This document shows positions 34,083-61,700 of a stretch of 64,000 nucleotides of DNA, piece by piece. The number at the start of each line of letters is the position of its first letter. Positions within the stretch are counted from its first letter, which is position 1. Under the pieces are notes generated by a model, which saw only the letters and a program-made list of their open reading frames with translations, did not search any database and was not told the origin of the DNA. The DNA is from Crossaster papposus. Lineage: Eukaryota; Echinodermata; Asteroidea; Velatida; Solasteridae. The position numbers and the translations under genes were made by a program. The DNA is taken from positions 845,162 through 909,161 of the forward strand of contig JBAIAA010000596.1 of NCBI GenBank assembly GCA_037893245.1, in the 5' to 3' direction.

Positions 34083-36158
34083 TTACGGCCGGAGTCTAGG
34101 GCCCGCTTAGGGGCACTGGAAGCTCTGGGTATTTTAGACGCTCTATGGTTGGTCTCCGATGCATTTTTGAAACCTGTTTTTCCAGGTAGAAGTGAACTAC
34201 ACTGGTAAGATTTTTCTTTTTTTGAACAACAAATAATAGGTTTAATGGAAAATACAGAATGTAAAATTGTGCACTATTTTTGCTTTTTATTGATGTAAAA
34301 TACTCAATTGTCGCTTCGAGCCACTCACATTAAGCTTTCCCAGGTTCATAACGTTTTCGAAAGCAGTCTCCTGCAAAGACTCTTGTCACACTAGGCCTAA
34401 ATCTATTTATTTTTAACACTCCAGTCGATAAGTTTAGCATCGGTATCGCCACGCATAGCAAACCACAAAACATGCTGCCTTGCCGCCATTGTTAATATTA
34501 CTTTCCACCATTAATGATTTTCGTTGGTTCCCAATAAATCTTTCGCTAATTGTGAGGCTATAACAGGTACCAGTTTCCCATGGCCTGTGATTTCAGTCGT
34601 GCCGCGCCGCTCATTGGTTCGTGTACATGTATTCGCATTTTTGTATCACTGTGGAGACATGGTTTGTTCTCGTGTACAAAATGGTTAGAAAGTCGAGCAC
34701 GTTTTTTAAAATGCTCCCATTTTAACCACAATTATTTTCCTGGGTTGAAATTTCGACCCATTATACCCTATATTATACCCTAACCCAAACACTAACCCTA
34801 ACCCACATCCTAACCCTAGTTTTTGAGTAATTTGAATAAAATTCAAAAATCTTATTCGTGAAATTCCTAATGGAGACCTATTCATCTATAGAAATTAACC
34901 TTTGGAGACCTTCACTCCCATTGTATTCATTGTGTTCACGTCTCCAGAGGGTACCGTATTTTGCACCAAACTTGCACGTATTTAATTAAACACGGTACAC
35001 AAAACACGTGCATTGTTTTGTCAATAGACTTTTAAAAGTCTACACACGTGTATCTTTGCTGCAGCAGTAAACGTATTACGGGCAAACATTATTGAACCGT
35101 ACCGTTAACGAAGCGAGGAATGAGACAAGTCTATAGATCCATCGCGTCTCTAGCTGCGTGTACAAGTATGCGCGGTGCATGGAAGACCGCAAGCCGCATA
35201 TCGGGCCAGCTGGCGGGCGGCAATTTATTGTTAAAGTGCCGTTTTTTTCACGAACGCCGTGTGGATCCGCGATATACGATTACAAAGGTAAACTTACAAT
35301 TTCTAAAGGTAAACTTACAATTTCTGATTAGGGAATAGGAATTAGCAAAATCCAAATGTATACCCTCTACAACTCACCCCCAAATTTTATATCGAATTCA
35401 CACTGAACTCCGAGATCACAAATTTGAACGGAAAAAACGGAATCCCCGTTAAAACCGGAAGATTCTCCTGCCTGAATATTATGTATGTAATGTTAGGTTA
35501 TATTGCATGTATAATATGTATGGATATATCTTCCCATTAGGAACTCGATAACCCCCTCCCCCCCCCCCCCGCCCCCCTCCCTCTCTCCACCCACCCCCTT
35601 ATTTTTTAGTTGCCTAACCAAATCATTATTAATTTGTAAAAGGAACATTTATGTCCCTGGTGCTCGCCAATTTTGGTTGAATAAGTAAATACCTAGGAGA
35701 GTTGATGGCTTCTGATTGGTCGAGACTCGATCGCATGGAGGGCATTATTTTGTAGTAATTGCCCGGCTTTCAAGAAAAGGCGATTGTCCCCTGAACCAGC
35801 ATTAATCAAGCATCATGTAAGACAATGATTGGCCGAATGCAACAGTCCTACGGTAACTTGTAACAAGAACGCGTCACTGTTATTCCCTAAATATTAATTA
35901 TAGTTATAGTTTTTAGAAAATTCTGCATTTGTAAAAAGAATTAGGCCAAACTCACTTGTTACGAACGTTAATGTACAGTCTGTATAAAGCTATATGCGTG
36001 CTTGAAATAAAGTTTGCTGACAACAATAATCACGTGACGCAAATATTGACTTCAATCTTCACGATGTGAGGGGAAAGTCAGGAAATTTGTCGTGACTAAA
36101 TTGACATCAACATCCACGATTTGAGAAAGTACAACATTTTGAGAAACGTATTAGCACC
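34083..36158. other. No assignable gene; weak telomere-like tract and a short direct repeat
   Basis: A CCCTAA-like tract is at 34763-34819. A 21-bp direct repeat (AAAGGTAAACTTACAATTTCT) occupies about 35285-35326. A short plus-strand ORF (35120-35338) begins MRQVYRSIASLAACTSMRG, basic and without acidic residues like a mitochondrial presequence, and meets a possible donor at the repeat; with no further exons it is not called. A C-rich stretch lies at 35552-35592. Confidence 0.4.
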
Positions 36159-37010
36159 GTTTGTTCGTTCGTTTGTTCGTTCGTTCGTTCGTTCGTTCGT
36201 TCGTTCGTTCGTTCGTTCGTTCGTTCGTTCGTTCGTTCGTTCGTTCGTTCGTTCGTTCGTTCGTTCGTTCGTTCGTTCGTTCGTTCGTTCGTTCGTTCGT
36301 TCGTTCGTTCGTTCGTTCGTTCGTTCGTTCGTTCGTTCGTTCGTTCGTTCGTTCGTTCGTTCGTTCGTTCGTTCGTTCGTTCGTTCGTTCGTTCGTTCGT
36401 TCGTTCGTTCGTTCGTTCGTTCGTTCGTTCGTTCGTTCGTTCGTTCGTTCGTTCGTTCGTTCGTTCGTTCGTTCGTTCGTTCGTTCGTTCGTTCGTTCGT
36501 TCGTTCGTTCGTTCGTTCGTTCGTTCGTTCGTTCGTTCGTTCGTTCGTTCGTTCGTTCGTTCGTTCGTTCGTTCGTTCGTTCGTTCGTTCGTTCGTTCGT
36601 TCGTTCGTTCGTTCGTTCGTTCGTTCGTTCGTTCGTTCGTTCGTTCGTTCGTTCGTTCGTTCGTTCGTTCGTTCGTTCGTTCGTTCGTTCGTTCGTTCGT
36701 TCGTTCGTTCGTTCGTTCGTTCGTTCGTTCGTTCGTTCGTTCGTTCGTTCGTTCGTTCGTTCGTTCGTTCGTTCGTTCGTTCGTTCGTTCGTTCGTTCGT
36801 TCGTTCGTTCGTTCGTTCGTTCGTTCGTTCGTTCGTTCGTTCGTTCGTTCGTTCGTTCGTTCGTTCGTTCGTTCGTTCGTTCGTTCGTTCGTTCGTTCGT
36901 TCGTTCGTTCGTTCGTTCGTTCGTTCGTTCGTTCGTTCGTTCGTTCGTTCGTTCGTTCGTTCGTTCGTTCGTTCGTTCGTTCGTTCGTTCGTTCGTTCGT
37001 TCGTTCGTTT
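36159..37010. repeat. (TTCG)n microsatellite, about 850 bp
   Basis: About 212 tandem TTCG units occur, almost perfect except for two TTTG variants at the left end. All frames are open because the unit contains no stop in either direction, which explains the long spurious ORFs. Confidence 0.97.
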
Positions 37011-44929: not shown

Positions 44930-45123
44930 TACGACTATTGTAACTCTCTCTTGGTTGGTCTGCCTGACTACCAGTTGGCCAGGGTCCAGAGAATTATGAA
45001 CGGTGCTGCCCGTCTCATTTTCTGTCTGCCCAAATTCTACCATATTAGTGACACTCTCAGGTCTTTTCACTGGCTGCCAGTGAAAGAAAGAATCGAGTTC
45101 AAGCTCATACTCCAGGTGTTTAA
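44930..45123 (+). pseudogene. LINE reverse transcriptase 3' fragment, first half
   Basis: The frame encodes DYCNSLLVGLPDYQLARVQR, then GAARLIFCLPKFYHIS, then LHWLP-like SFHWLPVKERIEFKL, the usual order at the end of CR1/Rex-like LINE reverse transcriptases. It stops matching at GTGTTTAA, where a TTAA-flanked element begins (45124). The second half of the same reading frame resumes at 59160. Confidence 0.85.
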
Positions 45124-45726
45124 GACTGAGTTGCTCTAAAAATCAAAGAAGTGGTGGCAGATTTTTTTAAATGGATTTCGTTTATTCTTTGCACATGTGA
45201 AGGTCTTCAACCAAAGTGTAAAAAGAAAGCATATTTATTGTATCCACACTTCGGTTGCCATGGCAACGGGTGAAAATAGAAAGTTACCAATTTTACCTAA
45301 TTTAGCTCTTTTCAGTAAAAATGACCGAAGGTTGTGAGCTTCACTGTATAAAGACCAAATAGTTTACCTACCTCTCAGCTAAACATAGTAAAGATACATC
45401 CTTAATCTTTCCAAAAATGCACTTTCAAATATGGGTGTTTTGAGCAAAAGTCAATTTGGGAAATACAGGTGGTTGCTAAAATAGTCAGAAGTCTGAAAGT
45501 GGCATATTTGGGAAAGTTTTGCTTCCAAGATTGAAAGATAAGATGCTGGTCTGTAAGAATAAGGAAACAACAGTTTTGGTATTTTTTGTACGGGGGAGCA
45601 GTGTTGCCAGAAACTTCAGAAACTTTGATTTGTTTAATGTATATTTAAACGTAGCATTTTTAATGTAGCATTAAACGACCGAAACTCGTAAACAAAACTA
45701 AATTTACATAGTTGTGTGACAAAGTT

Positions 45727-45856
45727 GGCAGTTACATTGTTAGTAGTGACACAATTGGCAATGACGCAGTTGGTAATAACAAAGTTGGTGATGACATAAT
45801 TGGCAATGACATAATCGGCGGTTACATAATTGGCAATGACATAATTGGCAGCAACA
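45727..45856 (+). repeat. 15-bp minisatellite
   Basis: About eight degenerate tandem copies of ACATAATTGGCAATG occur, with variants in the GGC and AAT positions. Confidence 0.75.
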
Positions 45857-46314
45857 AATGTTGAACAAGTCTTTCAAAAAGGCTTTAGCCATACATTTAC
45901 AATAACCTTCAAGTTCAATAGTGCGTCTGTTCATATGCAGTTTATACACTAGATTTTGCATAACAAGTATACATTGCATGATAACATTTGGACATGCTGG
46001 AAAAGCTTCTCAATTGAAACTCGCAGGAAGATGCAACAATGCCAAAGCATATTTAAAGTTCATTCACAGATAAAGTGTTTAAAATAAATGGCCTCATTTC
46101 CCCCATAAAACAGTTCAAAACACTGTATGCAAAGTTTACCCCCATGTTGTGGACATCTGTTACTTGCCTTTGCACAGAGTAGAGTATGCACAAAGTCTAT
46201 ACATAAAGATACTTCCATATCCGAAATAGTACATAGAGATAATTTCCATACCAGTATCTCAGATAGTACATATAAAGTATATGATTTGAAAAGTGGATCA
46301 TTTTGATTTCAGAG

Positions 46315-47315
46315 TGTGGGAGGGGGTCATGAAATACTAGGTGGGTTCGAAACTGGCTGAAAGTTGGGTTGGAACGGTCAAGTCCAACATGAGGCAGGCA
46401 GGCAGCGTTTTTATTGACAATAACAAACATACGACAAAAGGAGAAAAAGAAAAGGAAAATCCAAAATTAATTTAAGAATTAACTAGAAATTACAGTACAA
46501 TCAAGGTTACATGAAGTATGTTGCCGCACACTGACTAGTAGTCCACCTAAATGGACGGTGACGTCACCATCTAGGCCAAACTAGTGGCTGGTAAATGTAC
46601 ATGTAATAATTCGACATAAACTCTAGCAGGACTAGGAGTAAAGTCTATTACAGGAACAACTGATTTAACTTACACATTGGCAATCATAAAATACTAAGGT
46701 GCATTATCTCAGTCTCAATAAAATAGTAAATCGATCTACATCCAACTAGACATACTTTAAAATACAATGTAGTTGTTTAAAATGCATAGTATTGTCGTCT
46801 ACAACGAGTGAGGGCGCCCTTTACTTATCACAACGTCTGACAGAGTCTAAAAACACAGGTTTGTCTTAATTTTACAAATGATACACTGCAAACACAAGCA
46901 CATAATGCGAGTCCTACTTTAACAAACCACATGGGAATATATTTCGTACACGGGTGCATAATATAAATGAATGTACATGTATCTATATCCATCTCGGCCG
47001 AAAAAAGCGTTAATAAATGGGCGGCGCCATGTTGGATAAAATGTAACGAAACAAACCTGCTTAATACTAAATTTCAGACTGGTTTCACATATAACCTAGC
47101 GTACGTGGGGAACCTATACAATAATACAATTTAGGCCCTATAAGTTTTAATGACACTAACATTATTAAAAACACCTAAAATCTCGTACCTGAAAGTTGGG
47201 TTGGAACGGTCAAGTCCAACATGAGGCAGGCAGGCAGCGTTTGCCGCCGGCCGCATGGTGGCGCTATAACCGCTCCAACGGACGGACTTCCGTGCGATGC
47301 CTTACCGACTCTACA
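46315..47315 (-). repeat. 3' LTR of the gypsy element
   Basis: 1001 bp, TGTGGGAGGG...CGACTCTACA on the plus strand. It contains an internal direct repeat: GAAAGTTGGGTTGGAACGGT through GGCAGGCAGCGTTT occurs near 46358 and again near 47191, about 830 bp apart. Confidence 0.93.
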
Positions 47316-47331
47316 TCTTCTCCCAAAGTAC
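47316..47331 (-). promoter_or_regulatory. Polypurine tract
   Basis: The minus strand reads CTTTGGGAGAAGA directly before the 3' LTR, the expected position for the plus-strand primer of reverse transcription. Confidence 0.75.
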
Positions 47332-47709
47332 AACGTCGTCGCCCCGACGACGAAAAGGCCTACAGTGGTGCGACTACTCCGGGGCTTAGCCTGGAGCAAA
47401 ACTCCTAGTATTAACTACTGTAACAGCAAAAACTTGGCAAAAATTGTTATGCACAAAACTGTAACCTCTTAAAAACATCAATTACAAACACCAGAACAGG
47501 GGCACCTGGCCCAATGAAAAATCAACACTCAGTGGAAAGTGAGTTTTCTGTGTCTCCTTTACGAAAAACTCTGCTCGTGCACAGACAGCTCTTAGTCTAA
47601 ACAGTCTGTTACATTTGATTAGCTTGCCGCTGTGCAGATCTAGCTTTCAAAAGTTAATGGTCCGAGTCGCTCTCGGAGCAAGAGTCGTACTCAGTCTCTG
47701 TTCGAGTAG

Positions 47710-50700
47710 CTATAGTCTTCTCACCTGGTCAAGTAGACGGATGACACTGCTGAACTGGTACCTGCTGGGTGGCTTTCCCTTGGTCACTCGTCTCGATCGG
47801 CGTGGTCTCATCCCTCCACGGTCCTCGGCTCTGATGTCAGGTCGCACGGTCTCTCCTGGACTCCCGGCTGTGGCCTTGGGTTGAAGTGTAACTGGTCCTG
47901 CTCCTCCAGTCTCCCTGGTCATGACTGCTTCAGCTGGCTCTGCGACAAATACCTCTGGGGCAGTGGTGGGCAACGAACTTACGCAGTTGTCTTCTTTATC
48001 AGTAAGACCCAGATCAGCTAAACCAAGTGTTTCACCCCAAATAGCGCTGCTTTCGCTGCTGGCCGTTAGGCTCGAAGAAGAAGTGTCCGGTGTCGCCAAC
48101 TCGTCAGTGGCGGTATCTGCTGGCTGGGGCTTGACCTCCCATGGACAGTGCTTTACTTCACTTCGATGGAGAACCTTTTTTCGTCCAGTTGAATTGCGCA
48201 CCTCATAGACTGGCTGTCCCTCAAAGGGTCTCCCAACTACCAAGTATGGTGATTCCTCCCAAAAATCCTGGATTTTACACCTTCCCCGGTGTGTACGGTC
48301 CCTGACCAAGACGTACTCTCCAATGCCCAGTGGTTGTTCGAATACATCCTTTCTGTGAGCCATGGTCCTGCTTTCAACTGTCTGGGCCACGTTAGCAGCT
48401 GCTAGCTTGCGGACAGTGTCCAACTGTGACAAGTGTTTCTTCACGTAGTGCTGTGGTGTCTCTCCATCTAGTTGGGGGTGGTCTACACCCAGGACAAGGT
48501 GTTGGGGCAGACGTGCTGATCTCCCGAAGAGTAGAAAGAAAGGCTCATAGCCCGTACAGCTGTGGACGGTGTTGTTGTAGGTAGCAACTAACTGTGGTAG
48601 GTAGTCAGCCCATCTTGACTTCTTCTGTGCAGGCAGTACTTTAAGTAGGTTATGCAGAGTGCGATTGAAACGCTCGCATTGCCCATTCCCTTGGGGATGG
48701 TACGGAGTGGTATGCGAGCGCCCAATACCGTACAGCTGGCAGAGTTCCTGAATGACTCCGGCTATAAAGCACTTCCCATTATCAGAGTGAAGTCTGAGCG
48801 GAGCCCCATAAGGTGTTATCAGGTGTTTGACTAGGGCACGTGCCACTGTTTCTGCCCGTTGGTCTCTCGTGGGAATGGCCCACGCGAACTTAGTGAATAC
48901 ATCGGTGAGGATTAACACGTTCTCGTGGCCACTTGATGACGGCTCGAGTACCGTAAAGTCCATCGCTACTACTTCCAATGGGGCGGTAGCCTTGAGAGTT
49001 CCCATTGGGGGTCTTGTGCAACGGTTAGGTTGCTTGCTGACACCACACCTGACACACTGCCGACACCAAGCTCTGACTGAACTCTCCATGTTTGGCCAAA
49101 AGAAGAGGGGCTGGATCAACCGGAGGGTTCGCTTTACCCCAAAGTGACCCATGTCGTCATGGAAGGATTTCAGTACAACCTCCTGCAGTCGGGCTGGCAC
49201 CACCAGGCGCTCACACTTCCTTCCCCCATGAAAGGTTGACTGCCGGTACAACACCCCATCCCTCAGCTGAAGCTGATCCCAGTGTTTTAGTACGGTAGCT
49301 ACTGCTGGAGGATCCTCATGTCTCTCTTGACGGGTCGGTCGGTAGCCTCTCCCAAAGTACGTCCTGACTCTCTGGAGTACGAAATCACCATTTTGAAGGG
49401 ATCCGAGTTCTGCTGCAGTATACCCAGGTAAGCATCGACTTCCATCTTGCTGGTTTACTCTTATCTGATGAAGTAGAACTGGTGGCACCGCCGAACTAGA
49501 GTCAGTGGGGCCACATGTGGCACGTACTGCCCCAGAGGAGACTTCCAACTCGGGACCCAGATGGAGGGGCTTAGGAGCACCATCATCCTTCTGGGAAAGC
49601 CTAGACAGAGCATCAGGAGCTTGGTTACGCTTCCCAGGTCGATATTCTAACTTGTAGTCGAAGGCAGACAACTGCTGAACCCATCTGAGCTCTGGGGCAC
49701 TGAGATTGGCCGTATCTAAGTACTTCAGTGGATTATGATCCGTGTAGATTGTGCATTGGTTCCCCATTAGATAGTCCTTGAAGGCCTGGCAGACTGACCA
49801 TCGAACAGCTAGTAGCTCTAACTTGAATGATGAATAATGCCTATCGTTGCGCTCTGCTGGCCGCAGAGATCTGGATGCATAGGCAATCACTGTCCTGGTT
49901 CCGTCACCTTGTTCCTGAGAAAGTACTGCCCCCAGCCCAGTCGCACTAGCATCAGTTTCCACACGAAAAGGTCGACTGAAATCAGCGAACTGCAGAACTG
50001 GCGCCTCAGTTAACTTTGTCTTTAGTGCCAGGAAAGCCGAAACTGCAGCACTATCCAGGTCTACCTTCCTACTCCCAGTTTTCGTCTTCGCGTTGCCCTT
50101 ACTTCCAGTCCCCTTTAGATAGGTGAACAGAGGAGACGCGACGCTGGAATACTGGTGGACAAACTTCCTAAAGAACCCTGTGAAGCCCAGGAAAGACCTA
50201 AGCTCAGTTACTGTCGTTGGTTGTGGCCAATCCTGAACCACGGATATCTTGTCAGGGTCTGGTTTCACTCCTTCACCCGCTGCTACCAAATGCCCCAAGT
50301 ACTTAACTTGAGTCTGGAAGAAGGAACACTTTGCTGGCTTGATCTTCAACCCATACTGCTGCAGACGAGAGAACACCCGCTCTAGTCGCTCAAGGTGTTC
50401 ATCAAAGGTCGATGAGAATATTATGATGTCATCTAGGTAAATCAGGAGGCTTTGCAGGGCTTGATCGCCCAGGCAACGTTGCATGAGGCGTTGAAATGTT
50501 GCTGGGCTGTTGCAAAGCCCGAATGGCATTCTTGTGTATTCATACAACCCGAACGGCGTCACGAATGCTGTCTTTTCTTGATCCTTCTCCTCCATGGCCA
50601 ACTGGTAGTATCCCGACGTCAAGTCAAGAACGCTGAAGTACTTTGCTCCCCCAAGGGCTTGGAGTGATTCATCGATCCGGGGCAAGGGGAAGGAGTTCTT

Positions 50701-52914
50701 GGTAGTAACCGAATTTAGCCTTCTGTAATCAATACACAGACGGATAGTTTGGTCCTTTTTTCTAACAACAACTATCGGCGATGCCCAGGGGCTAACACTT
50801 TCACGAACAATCCCAGCATTGACAAGTTCATGTATGTGCTGGCGAACTTCCTGATACTGTGATGGCGGAAGTGACCTGTATCGTTGCCGGATCGGGGCCG
50901 CGTCACCCGTCTCTATGGTGTGCTTCACGGTGTCACAGTAACCAAGGTCTCGGTCATGTCTTGAGAAGATGCCTTCATATTGCCTCAACATTCCCTTGAA
51001 CTTCGCTTGTTGATCTGCTGTTAACTCGACCCCTGGCTCAAAATCGCCCGTCTGTAGACCAGTGGGGTCCGGGGTCATCGATGAAGAGCAAAAGGCCGTT
51101 TGGATGACAGAAGGGTCGGGGTGATCCTGATTGGCAGCATCCGAGTTGATTAACTCTGCAAGATACAAGGTTCCTATGCAGGTATGACTTGGGACGATGG
51201 CGTCACACTCACTGTCATTTGTCAAAGCCACCAAAAACATGCCGTTTGATACTGGAACCAAACACCGCCCAATTTGCAGTGAAGAAGTTAGGTTGGACCC
51301 CTCGTCTGGTTCCAGGATTGCCTCATACGTCATGCCATCAGGCCCCGGTTGAGCAGTTGCCCAAAATGTGACAGTCTCGCCCTGAGGGACAACTGCAGCT
51401 CCTCCCTTTGGTAGATATGCACGACTTATTCCATCCCTGGCCGAAAACTTGACTCTCTTCCCTGTTGCTGCTAAGGCTCTCTTCCATGTTGGCCCTTGTC
51501 TCTCGGTGCGAAGCTGCTCTAAGTATCCCTGACCGTAGTCTCGAACCAGAAGGCTCCAACACTCCCCCAAAACATTCATTCCTAAAATGCATGGTGGGCC
51601 AACAGGCTTCGCTACCCCGTCATTCTCCTTAATAACAAGTATGAGTCGGTCAGGTATGTTGGTGCCGAGTGCGGTCACGTCTGCCTCAAAACAGCCAATA
51701 TATGGTATGTCTGCCCCATTTGCTAAAAGCAGTCGGAAGTACTCTGGAATCGCCTTTATCTCAAACCCGCGTGGTTTCAGGAACTGGTAGTAGTACTGCT
51801 CAGACACAGTGGAGACCATTGACCCTGTATCGAGCAGACACTGGACTGGATGCAAGCAATTACGTGTACCGAGCAGAACATTGACGCAGTAACAATTTGA
51901 AACAGCCGTATTAAAAAATCGCTGATCTACTGAGCCATCCCATGCCCCTTCAGCTGTCTGGCTCCCGACAACTGAGGGCGCCTGTTTTCCGACCGGGGGG
52001 GTAGCACCGGGTGGCGGTCGGCGGATGTAGGGTTGACGGGGAATCTGGCAATTTCGGGCAAAGTGCCCTGGCTCTCCACAGTTGTAGCACCGGGGGACCT
52101 GCACGGGGGAATGGTACTCTGGTGGGAATGGGCCGTTCCAGGAATTCTGTGCGGGACCAAGGGGAAGCTGTGGGGAAGCCGACTTGAGGGCGAGGGCCTC
52201 AACTGTTTGTTGGAGCTTCTCAACTTTCTTCTCTAACTGGCCGAGTGAGCTATCTTCGAGATGCATAGTCGCCATTGTCCCTTGCTTGGGCAACCTGCCG
52301 GGACGGGCACCCTCCCTTTCAGCTCTTTTGATCGCCCAGTTCTTTATTTCAGTGAAAGTCATAGTTGGGCAGCGATCCAGGAGGTCACGACACGAGTTTC
52401 GTAACCCCTCCACCTCCAGCCCGTCAACGAACTGCTCTATCAACATCCGGTCCGGTCCCTGATAGATCTTTTCCTTTTTCTGTAGCCGAAGGTAAAGGCG
52501 TTGAAGGGCTACGGAAAAGTCTCTTACACTTTCCCCTGTCTGCTGACGACGGTCAAGTAGTCGGCGCTGGAGCTCACCACTGGTCAGTCCTTCCCCGTAG
52601 GAGTCCTTTAGATAGGTAAGCACCTCTTCGGCTGTCTGTCCACTGTTGAGTAGTGCCTTGGCCTCCACCTTCGGGCTGCCCTTGAGAGAGTCAAGGAGGA
52701 ACTGCCCCCTCTGTCGTGGTAACACTGCATATCGATCGAAGGCATGCAGGATTGTCTCTACAAACTCATCAATGGGCATTGATCGGCCCGTGATGTCTTC
52801 TCTGCCCTCGTATGTTGGAACTTTGCGCTCTGGGGCCAGCACTACAGGAGCTTGACTAGGCGGTACTGCGACAGCTGGCTCTGTCACTACTACATCAAAG
52901 ACTCTCCCTCCCAT
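47710..52914 (-). CDS. gag-pol: Gag-Pol polyprotein of the Ty3/gypsy element
   Basis: One 1734-codon frame without stops. Approximate order: retrotransposon gag domain (50-190), coiled-coil-like stretch (about 220-245), CCHC zinc knuckle CYNCGEPGHFARNC (about 276-289), aspartic protease LLDTGSMVSTVS (about 360), reverse transcriptase with LRLCIDYRRLN and YLDD (about 826), RNase H with VETDASATGLG (about 985), integrase with HHCC zinc finger (1250-1285) and DDE residues in VAMDFT, LHSDNGKC and GQCERFN (about 1320, 1377, 1415), then a C-terminal extension with an acidic, Ser/Thr-rich part. Gag and pol are fused in one frame, so no frameshift is needed between them. The ATG at 52914 overlaps the end of a small upstream ORF. 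All catalytic motifs look intact, so the element may be active. Confidence 0.95.
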   Translation of the reverse strand: MGGRVFDVVVTEPAVAVPPSQAPVVLAPERKVPTYEGREDITGRSMPIDEFVETILHAFDRYAVLPRQRGQFLLDSLKGSPKVEAKALLNSGQTAEEVLTYLKDSYGEGLTSGELQRRLLDRRQQTGESVRDFSVALQRLYLRLQKKEKIYQGPDRMLIEQFVDGLEVEGLRNSCRDLLDRCPTMTFTEIKNWAIKRAEREGARPGRLPKQGTMATMHLEDSSLGQLEKKVEKLQQTVEALALKSASPQLPLGPAQNSWNGPFPPEYHSPVQVPRCYNCGEPGHFARNCQIPRQPYIRRPPPGATPPVGKQAPSVVGSQTAEGAWDGSVDQRFFNTAVSNCYCVNVLLGTRNCLHPVQCLLDTGSMVSTVSEQYYYQFLKPRGFEIKAIPEYFRLLLANGADIPYIGCFEADVTALGTNIPDRLILVIKENDGVAKPVGPPCILGMNVLGECWSLLVRDYGQGYLEQLRTERQGPTWKRALAATGKRVKFSARDGISRAYLPKGGAAVVPQGETVTFWATAQPGPDGMTYEAILEPDEGSNLTSSLQIGRCLVPVSNGMFLVALTNDSECDAIVPSHTCIGTLYLAELINSDAANQDHPDPSVIQTAFCSSSMTPDPTGLQTGDFEPGVELTADQQAKFKGMLRQYEGIFSRHDRDLGYCDTVKHTIETGDAAPIRQRYRSLPPSQYQEVRQHIHELVNAGIVRESVSPWASPIVVVRKKDQTIRLCIDYRRLNSVTTKNSFPLPRIDESLQALGGAKYFSVLDLTSGYYQLAMEEKDQEKTAFVTPFGLYEYTRMPFGLCNSPATFQRLMQRCLGDQALQSLLIYLDDIIIFSSTFDEHLERLERVFSRLQQYGLKIKPAKCSFFQTQVKYLGHLVAAGEGVKPDPDKISVVQDWPQPTTVTELRSFLGFTGFFRKFVHQYSSVASPLFTYLKGTGSKGNAKTKTGSRKVDLDSAAVSAFLALKTKLTEAPVLQFADFSRPFRVETDASATGLGAVLSQEQGDGTRTVIAYASRSLRPAERNDRHYSSFKLELLAVRWSVCQAFKDYLMGNQCTIYTDHNPLKYLDTANLSAPELRWVQQLSAFDYKLEYRPGKRNQAPDALSRLSQKDDGAPKPLHLGPELEVSSGAVRATCGPTDSSSAVPPVLLHQIRVNQQDGSRCLPGYTAAELGSLQNGDFVLQRVRTYFGRGYRPTRQERHEDPPAVATVLKHWDQLQLRDGVLYRQSTFHGGRKCERLVVPARLQEVVLKSFHDDMGHFGVKRTLRLIQPLFFWPNMESSVRAWCRQCVRCGVSKQPNRCTRPPMGTLKATAPLEVVAMDFTVLEPSSSGHENVLILTDVFTKFAWAIPTRDQRAETVARALVKHLITPYGAPLRLHSDNGKCFIAGVIQELCQLYGIGRSHTTPYHPQGNGQCERFNRTLHNLLKVLPAQKKSRWADYLPQLVATYNNTVHSCTGYEPFFLLFGRSARLPQHLVLGVDHPQLDGETPQHYVKKHLSQLDTVRKLAAANVAQTVESRTMAHRKDVFEQPLGIGEYVLVRDRTHRGRCKIQDFWEESPYLVVGRPFEGQPVYEVRNSTGRKKVLHRSEVKHCPWEVKPQPADTATDELATPDTSSSSLTASSESSAIWGETLGLADLGLTDKEDNCVSSLPTTAPEVFVAEPAEAVMTRETGGAGPVTLQPKATAGSPGETVRPDIRAEDRGGMRPRRSRRVTKGKPPSRYQFSSVIRLLDQVRRL

Positions 52915-53135
52915 CCATCAGCTGGCGGTATAACTGCTCCATTCTCGACTATCAGGATAACTTCTCCATCCTCAGTGGCATATGAAAGGCCTCGTGCTTC
53001 TGCGTAACGGACTTGTAGCGTCGACAGCAAGAGCCGGTTCTTGCGTAGGGTTAGCTGAACGGGTTTGTCCGTTGAGCTTAGCTTCACTCGAACAGTGGAC
53101 GAGTCCGGTGCCATACCTGCAGCACACTCAGACAA
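52890..53135 (-). CDS. Small ORF preceding and overlapping gag-pol
   Basis: An 81-codon frame between the primer-binding site and gag-pol, beginning MSECAAGMAPDSSTVRVKLS. It overlaps the gag-pol start by 25 nt: its last codons GGATGGGAGGGAG contain the gag-pol ATG in another frame. It has a mixed hydrophobic and charged make-up (VQLTLRKNRLLLSTLQVRYA, VILIVENGAVI), hinting at a small beta-rich fold; no family recognised. It may be an accessory protein, a translated leader allowing reinitiation, or the true gag N-terminus joined by frameshifting. Confidence 0.5.
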   Translation of the reverse strand: MSECAAGMAPDSSTVRVKLSSTDKPVQLTLRKNRLLLSTLQVRYAEARGLSYATEDGEVILIVENGAVIPPADGWEGESLM

Positions 53136-53182
53136 AGATGCTGTTGCCTACCTCAGTTTACTATTTGTCTTGTCTCGTCAGC

Positions 53183-53201
53183 CAATCCCACTTCTGACAC
53201 C
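53183..53201 (-). promoter_or_regulatory. Primer-binding site (tRNA-Leu type)
   Basis: Immediately after the 5' LTR the minus strand reads GGTGTCAGAAGTGGGATT, complementary to a tRNA 3' end AATCCCACTTCTGACACC. This resembles the acceptor and T-arm end of metazoan tRNA-Leu; the tRNA identity is inferred from memory. Confidence 0.7.
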
Positions 53202-54203
53202 TGTGGGAGGGGGTCATGAAATGACTAGGTGGGTTCGAAACTGGCTGAAAGTTGGGTTGGAACGGTCAAGTCCAACATGAGGCAGGCAGGCAGCGTTTTT
53301 ATTGACAATAACAAACATACGACAAAAGGAGAAAAAGAAAAGGAAAATCCAAAATTAATTTAAGAATTAACTAGAAATTACAGTACAATCAAGGTTACAT
53401 GAAGTATGTTGCCGCACACTGACTAGTAGTCCACCTAAATGGACGGTGACGTCACCATCTAGGCCAAACTAGTGGCTGGTAAATGTACATGTAATAATTC
53501 GACATAAACTCTAGCAGGACTAGGAGTAAAGTCTATTACAGGAACAACTGATTTAACTTACACATTGGCAATCATAAAATACTAAGGTGCATTATCTCAG
53601 TCTCAATAAAATAGTAAATCGATCTACATCCAACTAGACATACTTTAAAATACAATGTAGTTGTTTAAAATGCATAGTATTGTCGTCTACAACGAGTGAG
53701 GGCGCCCTTTACTTATCACAACGTCTGACAGAGTCTAAAAACACAGGTTTGTCTTAATTTTACAAATGATACACTGCAAACACAAGCACATAATGCGAGT
53801 CCTACTTTAACAAACCACATGGGAATATATTTCGTACACGGGTGCATAATATAAATGAATGTACATGTATCTATATCCATCTCGGCCGAAAAAAGCGTTA
53901 ATAAATGGGCGGCGCCATGTTGGATAAAATGTAACGAAACAAACCTGCTTAATACTAAATTTCAGACTGGTTTCACATATAACCTAGCGTACGTGGGGAA
54001 CCTATACAATAATACAATTTAGGCCCTATAAGTTTTAATGACACTAACATTATTAAAAACACCTAAAATCTCGTACCTGAAAGTTGGGTTGGAACGGTCA
54101 AGTCCAACATGAGGCAGGCAGGCAGCGTTTGCCGCCGGCCGCATGGTGGCGCTATAACCGCTCCAACGGACGGACTTCCGTGCGATGCCTTACCGACTCT
54201 ACA
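53202..54203 (-). repeat. 5' LTR of the gypsy element
   Basis: 1002 bp, near-identical to the 3' LTR. Transcription of the element would start here on the minus strand. The internal 55-bp direct repeat is present here too (53245 and 54078 regions). Confidence 0.93.
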
Positions 54204-55692
54204 AGAGTATCGTCTCTGTATATAAGATCACACAGCAGACTTCTATAAAGTTGAAGATAATAGACCTTAGTTACACTTTTTCAGCATTCTCAAACATTAA
54301 AAAGTATTATGAATATTTTGAGATTAAATACAACTGTTCCAACTGTTCCGATTTGCTCCAATTTTCAAGCATTTACTGGAATCTGTAAGAATAAAAATGA
54401 AGCAAAAGGTTTTACTGAAAACTATTTGCTAAAGAGTAAAAGTATTTACTTTTTAATTTCCAGCATTTGCTAGAATATTAGTATTTGCTCCATTTGGTAT
54501 GAATAAAAATGAGTAAATGCTTCAGATTTGCAGTATTAACTCGTAATTGGGTCGGGGCTATCTTGAAAAAAGAGAAGCAGACACTAATATGAACAATAGG
54601 AGCTTTTGTATATGTGGTTAGGCAGGAAAAAAACATGGAAGATGGATTGTCTAGGATTAAAATACAAGCAGTTGTACTGATTTTGGGGAAGGAAATGAGA
54701 CGTAGATGGCCGATCATTTCTTGCAATTGTTGTGGCGATTTATTGTCACTGGGTTTCACCTGTTGTGGGTTGAATTAACAGCCACCCAACAATTTAGGGA
54801 ATTTTAATCTATGAATGAAATGAATTTATACTCCTGTTTTCTTACATGTTGTTGGTTGTATAGTAAATAATTTAAGGAATTTTAATCGGGAATGGGAACG
54901 CTTTGTGATCTCAGCTTGTCGTTTCTATAGAGCTGCCCTATGGTTCGATATGGCCTGATCATGAGGCGTCTCCTCTATTCAGGATCCTTTAAAAAGGAGA
55001 TCGGATGTGAACACGTCGCACTCCGTGACGGGTCTCAAGCGGGTTCACATCACACAGGGAACTGGGTTCATCCACATTATGTAGGGACTGTTGTACATTA
55101 CTGTATAGGGACAAGAAGGGTAAGATATTAGATATGGCAACTAGGGACGTTTCCTGACACGCAGTAAGTAAATAATTGTACATTTCCCGTTAGAATTTAA
55201 CTATAAAATAAAGGCCGAAGTTGTAGTTTAGAAACCAATCCTTTTCAATTCGTGTTATTTTAGTTGTCCAATTGACATTCAGAACTCAGGAAACCGGTAC
55301 TGCTCTATCTGCTAATTCCCTAACGCCCGGTCAAATACATAGTTCCAATTAAACAATAGGGCCGGTATAACACATGGTAGAAGATCCGTTTTATTCATTT
55401 TCTAAAATGGATGCTTTGATAATGTATAGGGAGTGCCCTTGCCTCTTTTTATTCTCATTTTTTGTTAGGTAAGCCTTTAAACTGTCGTGTGTATGTCAAT
55501 GGTGATTCTGTCAATGTGATGTTTTGTCTATGGTGATTCAGACGGATAAAAATTAGTTTGTTCGATTAATAGAACACAACTGTTTCCTCGTAAAGGAAAA
55601 CAAAAAAGAGGCTTAATTGCGCACGTGTTTTCTGATATATATTATTGGTTTATTGTATTTTGTCTAGTATTGCTAGCTGAAGCTTTGAATTT

Positions 55693-57480
55693 GTGAATTT
55701 ATATCAATTGATGATTAAAAAGGAAAACTCGGAAAAGATCCGTTCAAATGAGGACTCTTCATCAGTAGATACAAATTCCTCCGATTCAAAATTAATCATG
55801 GCTTCTAAATATGATATGTCGTCATGTACAATTAGCTATTCAGGAAATCCTGATGAAGATATAGAAACTTTTCATTCCACATTCATGGATTATGCTAAAT
55901 TACGAGACTATACTGATGCCAAATGGGTTCTAGCATTTAAGACTAGACTTCATGGAAATGCTCGGGTATTCTTGGATTCAGTTTCAGTTGATCAAAACGA
56001 TTCCGTGGATAAAATTATAGAATTACTCAAGCATAATTTTGAAGGTGATGCATGGAAATGGAATATTGAAACAAAATTATTAGCTAAAAAACAGAATTCA
56101 GAAGAATTGTTGGATAGTTATGTGACTGACATAATACGGTGGTGTAATCAATTGAAGAAGACTGACACTGAACGGCCAGACTTGTTGTAGCTGTTAATGA
56201 AACGGCCAATGATACTTTGCCCACTAATACTAGTGTTAAACCGGTAGTTATCAATGCGATGCAAAATAATGCTTTGCAAACTTCGGTTAATCAGCTGTCT
56301 GAACTTATGGTTAATACTGTTGACAGACTAGATAAATTGGAGAAAAATCAGCAAAGATCATATCTTCCAAATGATAGGCCTATGTCCTACAGACAACCGT
56401 ACACGCCTCAGTGGGTCGTATGAATAAGAACTAGCAAATGCTATGAAGTACAAGCAAAAAGTAAAAGCATTTACTTCGAAGTAAAAGCATTAAGTAAAAG
56501 CAAATGCTTCCATTCGTATGAATAAAATAAAGTTTTACTGTTTAGCATTTACTGGCTGAAATAGCAGTAAATGCTTTTTACTTGCAATTGATTTCACAGC
56601 CGAATGGTTTATAACAATAGAGTCTCTATTGTGTGTACGATGCACACCCACGCACACACGCTAGTACGCTGACAGGGGTGTTTGAATGAAATCGGAACCT
56701 CAAGTTACTGCTTCGCAGTCACGATGCCGTTTTCTGTCTCAGCAATATTGCAAGAAATTATCGGCCATCTACGTCTCATTTCCTTGCCCAAAATCAGTAC
56801 AACTGCTTGTATTTTAATCCTAGACAATTCATCTTCCATGTTCATAAATTTTCCTGCCTAACCACAATATACAAAAGCTCCTATTTTTCATATTAGTATT
56901 TGATTCTCTTTTTTTAAGGTAGCCCCGACCCAACCTTGAAAAATTACGAGTAAATATTGCAAATCTGAAGCATTTACTCATTTTTATTCATACCAAATGG
57001 AGCAAATACTAATATTCTAGCAAATGCTGGAAATTAAAAAAGTAAATACTTTTAGTCCTTAGCCAATACTTTCCAGTAAAACCTTTTGCTTTATTTTTAT
57101 TTATACAGATTCCAGTAAATGCTTGAAAATTGATAGTAAAAGCAAATGCTATTTTGTATGCATACGGCCCAGTATTCTCGTGTAAATCAGAGACCATCAT
57201 TTCGTTGTCATAGGTGCAATAGAATTGGACATAAATGGCGAAAGTGCTATGCTAGAATTCATGAAGATGGTACTCCTTTAAACTAGTTGACCCATCTTAT
57301 GTCTCTCACAAGCAGTATGTAAAGAAATATGTTCAAAAACATATAGATGGGGTAAAAAGAAAGAATGAACATTTTAACCGTAATTCCCCATCAGGGAAAT
57401 ATGCGACACCGACCAAAAATAGTTCTCGCAAATTTAGCCAAAACGTCATGTCAGGAGAAACTAACTATTCTGAATATATT
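55693..57480 (+). pseudogene. Gag-like gene with CCHC zinc knuckle, frameshifted and interrupted
   Basis: The first part (55693-56188) encodes a retrotransposon gag domain: ISYSGNPDEDIETF, then WVLAFKTRLHGNARVFLDS, then SYVTDIIRWCNQLKK. A frameshift near 56185 moves the frame; it then runs to 56412, where a 758-bp element is inserted. After the 3-bp target duplication (AGT, 57171-57173) the frame resumes and gives a zinc knuckle CHRCNRIGHKWRKC (57206-57247), followed by a Lys/Ser-rich tail to about 57480. No protease or reverse transcriptase follows. 54745-55692 may hold an LTR or leader (TATAAAATAAAGG at about 55203) but no LTR pair was found. Confidence 0.72.
56413..57170 (+). mobile_element. 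758-bp MITE inserted in the gag-like gene
   Basis: Ends GGGTCGTATGAATAAGAACT and GGGCCGTATGCATACAAAAT (complement) are inverted; AGT is duplicated on both sides (56410-56412 and 57171-57173). Arms are made of AGTAAATGC and GCATTTACT words. The 3-bp duplication and GGG terminus would suit PIF/Harbinger-like elements, which is an inference. Confidence 0.82.
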
Positions 57481-59159
57481 GAAACAGAGACAGAAAAGGG
57501 CATCAGAGACAGAAAAGGGCATCATGATTGCAAAGCAGCAACTTGAGGTTCCAATTTCATTCAAACAACCCTGTCAGCGTACATGTCTATGTGTGGGTGT
57601 GTATCATACACACAATACAGACTCTATTGTTATAAACCATTCGGCTGTGAAATGAATTGGAAGTAAAAAGCATTTACTGCTATTTCAGCCAGTAAATGCT
57701 AAACAGTAAAACTTTATTTTATTCATACGAATTGAAGCATTTGCTTTTCCTTAATGCTTTTACTTCGTAGTAAATGCGTTTACTTGTTGCTTGTACTTCA
57801 TAGCGTTTGCTAGTTTGTATTCATACGACCCAATGTACATGTAGTAGCAAGTTGGTTATTACCAGTCTGCATGTGTTGAGGACAATGAGGAGCGGTCGCT
57901 ATAGCCCAAGGTGCAAGCATGTGGGTATCTAATGTAAACAGATGTCTGGGCCAGGGGGTATAATGTAAACCCTTTACTCTCAGAGTCAGTGGTCAGCTTT
58001 TTTGAGCAGATGATCAATTCATTGAGCAATTGTATTTAGTTCAAAGAACATAAACTACTACATTTTAAATCCTCTATAGGTGCCGTGTGTTAGGAATGCT
58101 AAACAATTAAAACAATAAGACAATAATTTTGTAAAAAAATGCCAAATGAAACAATAAATTTTCAAAAACATGTAGGTTTTATTCCTAAAATTTCAATGTT
58201 TCACTATACATGCTTGATATAATACTTGTTGATGGAATATATATGGGTAACAGGCAACAAACATTTTTTTGCAACTTTGTTTTATTTTGTATCCATTTAT
58301 ACTGTTATATTTTTAAATACTGTAGTCCAGGTCCAAAAGAAAATGTTTGATATAAAAAGTCACTTACCAATTCCATGTACCGGTATCTATTATATTATAT
58401 CTAACTATTATAGGCCTATATCAAGGTTCACATAAAATCATGTCTCTGGCAATACTGACTGCCTTTAATGCCATTTAAGTATTTGTTCTCTTCATATCAA
58501 CATTCATTTTATGTATTCTATTATAAATATGACCAAATTGTTATATAATTTGGCAATTAGGACTTTCTTTAATGAATACTATTTGTCCATTCATTGCGTT
58601 TGTTTCCAGCCAAAGTGCTAACTTTCCGGCAACACTGTTTTCGCGTACTTAAAAACTTGTTATTCCGTGTTTATGTAGGTTGGTATCTTATCTACCAATT
58701 ATGAAAGTGGCATTACCCACAAAGTGCTACTTTTGGCTTTATAGCCCAATTCAATACCCCATTTTTCGCTATGAGAAAATATGATGACAACACCCCTATT
58801 TGAAATAATGGTTTGATCCAAAGTGGAACACACACATTACATTTTAAAATCATTTTCTGAAAGAGTAAACATGGTTGTGCAATATGTGTGAAAGAAAAAC
58901 TTCTACTATTTCCCCTGTAGATGTACCAGTGCTTCCAATTTACCTATATTTCATTACTTAAATAGTCTAAAAACTTGAACAATTTGTTGGAAATCTTATT
59001 TTGACCGTTACCATGGCAACAAACATCTAATATCATTTTTTTTTCTATTTTTGTATTTCATGTACTTATACCTACTCATATATGGAGTATTGCCACAATC
59101 CATTTTTTTAAGTCTGCCACCTTTTTAAAAATATCTTTGATTTTTACAGCAACCCAGTC

Positions 59160-59428
59160 TTAAGTGTTTAAAAGGTCTTGCCCCTAATTATTTGATAGAT
59201 ATGATTACTGTGAGATCTAGTGCTTACATTCTTCGTTCACAGACTCGTATTGTTCTACATGTCCCTCGTATTCATCACAAGACTCTTGGTGAGAGGGCAT
59301 TCGTGTATAAGGGCCCATGGCTGTGGAATCGTCTCCCGGCTGAGCTAACTTTGGTGGAATGTTTCTCAGTAGATGTCTTTAAAGGGAAACTCAAAGCTCA
59401 TTTGTTCAGACAGGCATATCCTGTCTGA
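59160..59428 (+). pseudogene. LINE reverse transcriptase 3' fragment, second half
   Basis: From the right TTAA the frame encodes CLKGLAPNYLIDMI, then TLGERAFVYKGPWLWNRLPA, then FKGKLKAHLFRQAYPV and a stop, the normal C-terminus of a CR1/Rex-like LINE protein. It continues the frame broken at 45123. A G-rich run (59439-59454) follows the stop. Confidence 0.85.
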
Positions 59429-60876
59429 TTTTCTTGTTGGGGGGGGGGGGGGGGATTTCTTTTGTTATTCAGATCCAAAACTTCTAAATTAAACTAATAT
59501 AGGCAAGCTTATAGACGATGCGCTCTCTGACGTCACGTGTTAACATCCGTATTCAAATGTGCCCGGCATTGATGCGCACCCATCATGTTTTACATACAAT
59601 TTGCTTAAAGAGTGACATCGCAGGTCAGATCGCCTTTGAATTATGTGACCTTTAATGTCATCTCTTAACCAAATTTATGTAAAACATGATGCGTGCGCAT
59701 ATTGACGGGCATATTTGAATACACATTTAAACAGAGGCACATCGTCTATAGCGAACGAATTCTGAATGACGCCCTTTTTCATGAACAACATTAACAGTGT
59801 TTTCCGTGTTTGGTTTTATGTCTAAAAACCAAGTTGTGTTTGACAAATAGTATATTTAAAAAAATTGCATAGGTCTATCAGTGAACTACAAAATAAACAG
59901 CCGATATTTAATAATCTTTCTTCCAACCGGCTTCGGTTGATAACCAGTTCATGCGTGGGATTGTTTTTTTTACGAACCTCGATGTGGGTAGCACACCCTG
60001 ATATTTCCGGACTCGATTGCTCGCTGCGAACCGGTCACATACATATATTGTTAGCCTTGCTCTTATATCTGTAATCCGTTTTTAATTCCAGAAAAATACA
60101 CGGCATCGAACGCAAACTGGTTATAAAAGGCAGAACACCCAGCTTGGTGATGTTGTTTACGCTGTTTGAAATAGACTACCTTTGCGTGGTGGTATCCCAC
60201 AAATCCCTGCGCGAACGAGACGTCTAATTTTGGCTTATTATTGTTTACAAATTAACACCTCATCTTATACAACAATTAATACACAACTGTGACAGCTTTT
60301 GTTTCTCCAAATATAGAATGCATAGCCTATAGCATTGTGTTTGAATTGCTGTATTACCAATAATGAGTTCACTGGGCGATAGGTCGAAACAGACCGATGA
60401 CAATAAAATCCTATCGTTATGAGCAGCCTGTACCGAATAGATTTACTGTTTTGTAGTTCACAATTTGTTGACTATAAAATACCACGTTGTATACGCTCGG
60501 GTTCGTGTGCAATTATTATTAAAAGTTATGCTCTTTCCCTGGTGCCAATTCGACTGCAACAGAATGCAAGTAGTGATTTCAGGATACCAGGCAAATGCTA
60601 GGGAATCCCGATGAGAAATCACCAGTGTATGACGTCATGCATCGATCGTGACGACGGGCGTCGGGGTCGAACCTCGTTCCCAAAATGTCGAGCAGTACGC
60701 CCCCCCCCAACCCTAGCTGGTATTGGATCACGATCAAAACACTTTGGATATCAATGCGAATAACGCTAGTATGAGGTGGAGGGGACGTGATATGTATCTC
60801 ACATGGAACATTAGCATTAAAATACGCAATACACGCCGAAGTTGCTGTTTTGAATTGCGATGCGAGTAGTGTTCAG

Positions 60877-61700
60877 CAGGGATGTAGTCGAGTCCATCAC
60901 AAGTCCCTGCAAGTCCCTGTAAGTCCCTGCAAGTCCCTGCAAGTCCCTGCAAGTCCCTGCAAGTCCCTGCAAGTCCCTGCAAGTCCCTGCAAGTCCCTGC
61001 AAGTCCCTGCAAGTCCCTGCAAGTCCCTGCAAGTCCCTGCAAGTCCCTGCAAGTCCCTGCAAGTCCCTGCAAGTCCCTGCAAGTCCCTGCAAGTCCCTGC
61101 AAGTCCCTGCAAGTCCCTGCAAGTCCCTGCAAGTCCCTGCAAGTCCCTGCAAGTCCCTGCAAGTCCCTGCAAGTCCCTGCAAGTCCCTGCAAGTCCCTGC
61201 AAGTCCCTGCAAGTCCCTGCAAGTCCCTGCAAGTCCCTGCAAGTCCCTGCAAGTCCCTGCAAGTCCCTGCAAGTCCCTGCAAGTCCCTGCAAGTCCCTGC
61301 AAGTCCCTGCAAGTCCCTGCAAGTCCCTGCAAGTCCCTGCAAGTCCCTGCAAGTCCCTGCAAGTCCCTGCAAGTCCCTGCAAGTCCCTGCAAGTCCCTGC
61401 AAGTCCCTGCAAGTCCCTGCAAGTCCCTGCAAGTCCCTGCAAGTCCCTGCAAGTCCCTGCAAGTCCCTGCAAGTCCCTGCAAGTCCCTGCAAGTCCCTGT
61501 AAGTCCCTGCAAGTCCCTGCAAGTCCATCACAAGTCCTTCAGTTCCAATTCAAATCACAAGCTATTCAAATCAGCTTTGACAAAGGCATTCCATTGTCAT
61601 TGTTCATCTAGTTACTGGTGACTGCCTTTATGAAGGGACTTGTGACTGGCTTTACGAAAGGACTTGTGAAAGGACTTGCAGGGACTCGACTACAACCCTG
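60877..61700. mobile_element. hAT-like non-autonomous element with 62-unit 10-bp array
   Basis: Ends CAGGGATGTAGTCGAGTCC and, as complement, CAGGGTTGTAGTCGAGTCC; the 8-bp target duplication GTGTTCAG lies at 60869-60876 and 61701-61708. The paralogous site at 7031-7038 has a single GTGTTCAG and no element, so the insertion is proven from within the window. CAGGG termini with 8-bp duplications are characteristic of hAT elements. The interior (60901-61520) is 62 tandem AAGTCCCTGC units; only the 2nd and 60th differ (AAGTCCCTGT). The unit copies the sub-terminal sequence AAGTCCCTGC. Long ORFs through it are artefacts. Confidence 0.9.

Follow-up and report, generated by a model that had tools for sequence, protein, structure and literature searches.

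Nested mobile elements in a split LINE of Crossaster papposus: a five-level path, one reassigned layer and one join common to other copies

When mobile elements lie within one another, can the depth of the stack be read as age? This question is raised by a 64-kb stretch of Crossaster papposus DNA (hereafter the window), which is the final 64 kb of contig C596 (JBAIAA010000596.1), and in which a LINE (long interspersed nuclear element) fragment is interrupted by a TTAA-flanked element carrying further insertions. An earlier note had described the locus as a five-level nested stack in one split LINE reading frame, with each boundary supported and a relative time order given by the nesting. Genome searches covering 1.02 Gb in 1841 contigs confirm the depth and revise the parts list: six mobile elements are stacked, and the longest path runs through five levels, namely LINE, TTAA element, MITE (miniature inverted-repeat transposable element), retroelement and a second MITE. 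Gypsy element 1 lies on a side branch within the TTAA element, beside the other nested elements and off the longest path. The nested cluster is real, but it is ordinary biology of transposable elements, and the correction of one layer is useful. The features are as follows, with LTR denoting long terminal repeat and TSD target site duplication.

44932..45123, + strand: LINE fragment, left piece; 5' end truncated; the target TTAA (45120-45123) is included.
59160..59438, + strand: LINE fragment, right piece; opens with the second TTAA (59160-59163); 3' end lost at a G run.
45124..59159, no strand assigned: TTAA-flanked Kolobok-like element with its entire load; inverted ends; relatives at other flanks.
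45124-46310, 54208 to about 54342 and about 57834 to 59159: the TTAA element's own sequence.
46315..54203, - strand: Ty3/gypsy element 1; LTRs 46315-47315 and 53202-54203; gag-pol frame 47710-52917.
46311-46314 and 54204-54207: AGAG, the TSD of Ty3/gypsy element 1.
54352..57833, - strand: outer MITE, split; halves 54352-54727 and about 57506 to 57833; right end CCC at about 57833.
54728..57488, + strand: Ty3/gypsy element 2 (retroelement 2); 5' LTR 54728 to about 55373, gag region to about 57488; pol and 3' LTR lost.
56413..57170, + strand: inner MITE, complete, in opposite orientation to the outer MITE; TSD AGT at 56410-56412 and 57171-57173.

The left LINE piece has 26 matches in the genome, and seven relatives were fetched and read (L002-L008, among which L003 and L004 are alike past the LINE end too and may be one duplicated locus). 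The left and right pieces abut in all seven, overlapping only in TTAA(G), and both are 97-98% identical to the window. The frame across the insertion site reads ...LILQVFKCLKGLAPNYL... in the uninterrupted relatives; when the window halves are read separately, the left one ends in ...LILQVFK and the right one begins with CLKGLAPNYL, matching those relatives. A reverse transcriptase domain (RVT_1, E 7.8e-32) is found in the 651-amino-acid frame of L003. As the two pieces are contiguous in the relatives and their frames match, the two LINE halves belong to one subfamily; a single LINE frame is thus split at 45123/59160 by the TTAA-flanked element, as the earlier note had claimed, and the finding it named as refuting, halves from different subfamilies, did not turn up. 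The LINE was firmly in place before the TTAA element entered. The window copy begins at about 44932 and halts at a G run, whereas three relatives (L002, L003 and L005) extend about 90 bases past that run to a repeat of A and T. Because both ends of the fragment are truncated, the LINE's own duplication is unreadable, and the support supposed to exist at every boundary is missing here.

The ends of the interrupting element, taken from 45124 and 59159, align in inverted orientation over about 720 bp with a score of 77.5, as compared to at most 17.5 in 30 shuffles; the identity is modest (446 identical of 640 aligned pairs in 807 columns), and near-identity is limited to the outermost 30 bp or so. 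A lack of similarity between 45124-45615 and 58610-59159, which would have told against inverted ends, is therefore not observed. TTAA lies directly at both ends of the window copy and of 9 of 11 relatives, each at different flanks, the exceptions being L026, in which the right end is shortened, and L027, in which one left base is altered. A 35-base pattern with up to three mismatches locates 89 left ends genome-wide, and none with the reversed control. Both ends terminate in GACTG. In PMC6004289 Kolobok is characterized by a TTAA target and an RR terminus, and T2-MITE is among its non-autonomous members. A DDE transposase with THAP and H2CH motifs is a further mark of the superfamily. The window element resembles the non-autonomous members in its TTAA target and RR terminus (GA), but differs in that its inverted ends are degenerate and as long as about 720 bp, and no transposase is seen in the fetched copies. 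The fit is Kolobok-like only, by TSD and GA terminus, and the name is kept at that level because no transposase was found. The copies look non-autonomous.

The sole THAP frame belongs to a separate element that has inserted into L034. This 3.3-kb element (L034:2769-6082, G000:C635) lies inside another copy of the TTAA element, as a TTAA element in a TTAA element, and displays inverted ends of about 20 bp, a TTAA duplication, the THAP frame and a P2X7-C-like frame. It was considered as the autonomous form of the TTAA element and rejected on account of its own short inverted ends and TTAA duplication; furthermore, the empty site is present in L029; L030 and L031 gave no match to the exact string.

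The outer arms at 54352-54727 and 57506-57833 together make up a single MITE of about 0.75 kb that retroelement 2 has split. To the same family belongs the inner element at 56413-57170, a complete copy that is inverted relative to the outer one and has AGT on both sides. The site of the inner copy is uninterrupted in all eight fetched retroelement loci (the exact string searched matched in six of them). The earlier note's smaller relative with an AGT duplication is therefore upheld, while the element that it splits turns out to be an LTR retroelement. Free copies of the family were taken from 15 loci (L040-L054), of which L043, L045, L053 and L054 were dropped, and L041 and L047 share a left flank; matching 3-bp duplications (AAT, ATT, ACT) flank 10 of the 11 copies with both ends readable, L050 being without. 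PIF/Harbinger elements prefer TWA targets. The duplications of the window family (AAT, ATT, ACT and AGT) are ANT instead of TWA, and the family is therefore not filed as Harbinger. It is otherwise like PIF/Harbinger-type MITEs in being a short non-coding element with GGG...CCC ends and a 3-bp duplication, in the free copies and in the inner MITE of the window alike, such 3-bp TSDs being attributed to these MITEs in PMC2213677. L043:930-2766 (G000:C616) also contains several MITE pieces of this family, some in each orientation, which look like a MITE in a MITE.

The layer between the two MITEs had to be reassigned. A genome search with 54204-56414, in which 40 of 1662 candidates were scored, divided the matches into 54358-54727, present in many copies, 54728-55373, an LTR, and 54728-56412, the LTR with the gag region. 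The 54728-55373 unit is present twice, 6-7 kb apart, in L037, L038 and L039, and L038 encodes gag, protease, reverse transcriptase, RNase H, integrase and a chromodomain. The paired LTRs of the relatives together with the domains of L038 identify 54728-57488 as the 5' part of an LTR retrotransposon. The LTR pair and the full domain set of a chromodomain Ty3/gypsy element are found in L038, while the window retains only the 5' LTR and gag region. Piece by piece, the window copy is 95.8-98.7% identical (values of 0.958-0.994) to eight loci, which represent about four insertions (L010-L013 have a common 5' flank, and L014 and L015 another). At 56173-56175 the window gag lacks 88 bp present in seven of the eight loci, the alignment of L013 being broken there. 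Because of this deletion the gag is broken with or without counting the inner MITE insertion, and the check proposed in the earlier note, closure of the gag frame upon excision, cannot succeed.

Two of the junctions are scarred. At the left end of the outer MITE about 120 bp, comprising the MITE end and neighbouring element, are missing as compared to L025, and a short filler repeats nearby bases. At the right end of retroelement 2 the match ends at 57488; MITE sequence picks up again some 6 bases beyond the point of insertion, next to a tandem duplication of 19 bases. The earlier claim of a target duplication or a resumed frame at every boundary therefore fails at both places, the first being deleted and the second lost. 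Both scars look like microhomology end joining, a repair mechanism deduced from their form, which would suit an incomplete complementary DNA joined through microhomology. It is also quite plausible, if not the favoured course, that the retroelement inserted whole, 3' LTR included, and that a subsequent deletion removed its 3' part, since the same copy shows two further deletions, one of 88 bp in gag and one of about 120 bp at the left end of the outer MITE; however, only luck would make a later deletion stop about 6 bases from the insertion point, next to a 19-base duplication, and this is a single case.

Gypsy element 1 is intact, as the earlier note had it. Between its LTRs there is no substitution and only a single 1-bp indel, AGAG stands on either side, and a single gag-pol frame of 1735 amino acids contains a zinc knuckle, reverse transcriptase, RNase H, integrase zinc finger and integrase core, with no envelope family among the 11 domain matches of this frame. 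The TG...CA ends of the LTRs and the reverse transcriptase-RNase H-integrase order place it in Ty3/gypsy. Its site is empty in all 12 distinct TTAA-element loci fetched (C223, C314, C130, C532, C179, C28, C783, C140, C251, C123, C635 and C553). Its arrival is likely to be the last event or nearly so. That domain order, as in elements 1 and 2, and the chromodomain in L038, a relative of element 2, are those of Ty3/gypsy LTR retrotransposons, and nothing is unusual here except the truncated window copy of element 2. Within each LTR of element 1, moreover, a 54-bp sequence is repeated exactly and in direct orientation at a spacing of about 0.83 kb (46357-46410 and 47189-47242, and likewise in the other LTR).

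Whether nesting equals time order depends on the outer MITE. Of the 12 fetched TTAA-element loci, 8 have it at the identical internal site and 4 lack it. Genome-wide, its right junction occurs 17 times including the window, i.e. in 16 other copies, and the empty site 32 times (five of these clustered on one contig), with no occurrence of either control. In a tree of the element body built from seven loaded copies, four empty ones and the window (L035 was excluded because the alignment of its right part was incomplete), the window groups with the seven loaded copies with support 100/100. In the MITE tree the outer MITE groups with eight embedded copies (99/96), and the inner MITE falls on the side of 11 free copies. 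The shared site and the tree grouping suggest that the MITE was most likely in the element's lineage before it reached the LINE, i.e. the outer MITE was likely carried as cargo. The outer layer is not simply the older one, because the same MITE site is occupied in the 16 other copies; the relative time order drawn from nesting in the earlier note thus stands only in part.

Some observations weigh against this reading. The trees are midpoint-rooted, so that gain of the MITE in one group and its loss in the other are indistinguishable; the MITE flanks in the TTAA element do not match each other (ATT and AAT), and loaded sites exceed empty ones by about 14 bases more than the MITE accounts for. 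For these three reasons the empty group may have lost the MITE. Neither the TTAA element nor the MITE yielded a transposase: in the 11 copies of the former the frames, which were not family-scanned, are at most 149 amino acids outside the L034 insert, and for the latter no autonomous partner was sought. Finally, the private divergences of the LINE and the TTAA element do not separate (p = 0.38).

Private differences were 7/470 (1.5%) for the LINE, 29/1982 (1.5%) for retroelement 2, 13/754 (1.7%) for the inner MITE, 53/2398 for the TTAA element and 26/674 for the outer MITE, counted against yardsticks that differ (7 LINE relatives, 8 retroelement loci, 11 TTAA-element copies, 11 free copies for the inner MITE and 8 embedded copies for the outer). 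The TTAA element as compared to the retroelement gave p = 0.07, and the LINE as compared to the retroelement p = 1.0; within retroelement 2 the 5' part (26/1435) and the 3' part (3/547) differ at p = 0.04. Divergence does not tell which of the two joins, that of the MITE or that of the LINE, is the earlier (p = 0.38). Since the LINE, retroelement and inner MITE are alike in private divergence, nesting gives a partial order only; entry of the MITE into the TTAA element, then of retroelement 2 into the MITE, and then of the second MITE into the retroelement is firm.

It is unlikely that the MITE entered while the TTAA element already lay in this LINE and that the other loaded copies descend from the window locus; if so, nesting order would equal time order along the longest path. 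The position of the window copy, sister to the seven loaded copies in the element tree and to the eight embedded MITEs, is what a source locus could show, and the undifferentiated LINE and TTAA-element divergences agree with it, but one locus would have to seed 16 other copies, eight of them fetched at different flanks. It is equally doubtful that the TTAA element already bore a large share of its load, namely the outer MITE, the truncated retroelement, the inner MITE and perhaps gypsy, before it jumped into the LINE. The equal private divergences (7/470, 29/1982 and 13/754) are compatible with such a course, which would mean that most of the stack had been assembled before its arrival and that its outermost join ranks among the youngest, not the oldest.

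The weakest reading, that of one inverted-repeat transposon which carries the gag and is split by a smaller relative, with each inner layer younger than its surround, can draw on arms (54359-54727 and 57506-57831) that face each other around the gag and each match half of the inner element, but is highly improbable, because the 54728-55373 unit is paired in L037-L039, LTR elements lacking MITE arms have the gag region after that unit, free MITEs of about 0.75 kb are without gag, and a genome-wide search allowing up to two mismatches found the MITE|LTR junction a single time. The earlier note had therefore merged two elements, the gag belonging to a chromodomain Ty3/gypsy inserted in a MITE; a gag-carrying transposon of terminal-inverted-repeat or DIRS-like type was rejected likewise, as the gag belongs to LTR elements.

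With its observed element identities, intact junctions, empty sites and shared MITE site, the locus very probably arose through a series of ordinary transpositions. A LINE copy, of which both ends are now missing, would have received a TTAA-targeting DNA transposon showing no transposase gene, by what we infer to be cut-and-paste movement. This transposon most likely already carried the 0.75-kb MITE, acquired in a common ancestor with the 16 other loaded copies. A chromodomain Ty3/gypsy element would have entered the MITE, leaving as its remnant the 5' LTR and gag region, with scars like those of microhomology end joining, and a second copy of the same MITE family would then have entered that gag. 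The separate Ty3/gypsy element 1 was probably a very recent arrival in the left part of the TTAA element.

Three further features of the window were recorded outside the stack: a 174-bp near-palindrome just downstream of the LINE fragment (59549-59722, 80% to its own reverse complement), a tandem array of a 10-base unit at 60900-61526 (62.7 copies, 99% matches), open in several frames, and a tandem CGTT array at 36158-37009 (213 copies, 99% matches).

Nested insertions serve as a relative clock in TinT (PMC3014933), and nested transposable elements in Mutator-like elements (MULEs) are described in PMC3903597. The likeness lies in elements within elements, read as strata. At the window locus, in contrast, the DNA transposon host probably moved with its guest, and the assumption that the host is older fails for that join. 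A literature search found no direct precedent for this composite, which is no proof of absence. The locus and its relatives thus offer a concrete case in which one join is common to copies elsewhere, so that stack depth is not age, and in which two unrelated insertions can mimic an inverted-repeat element with a gag gene.

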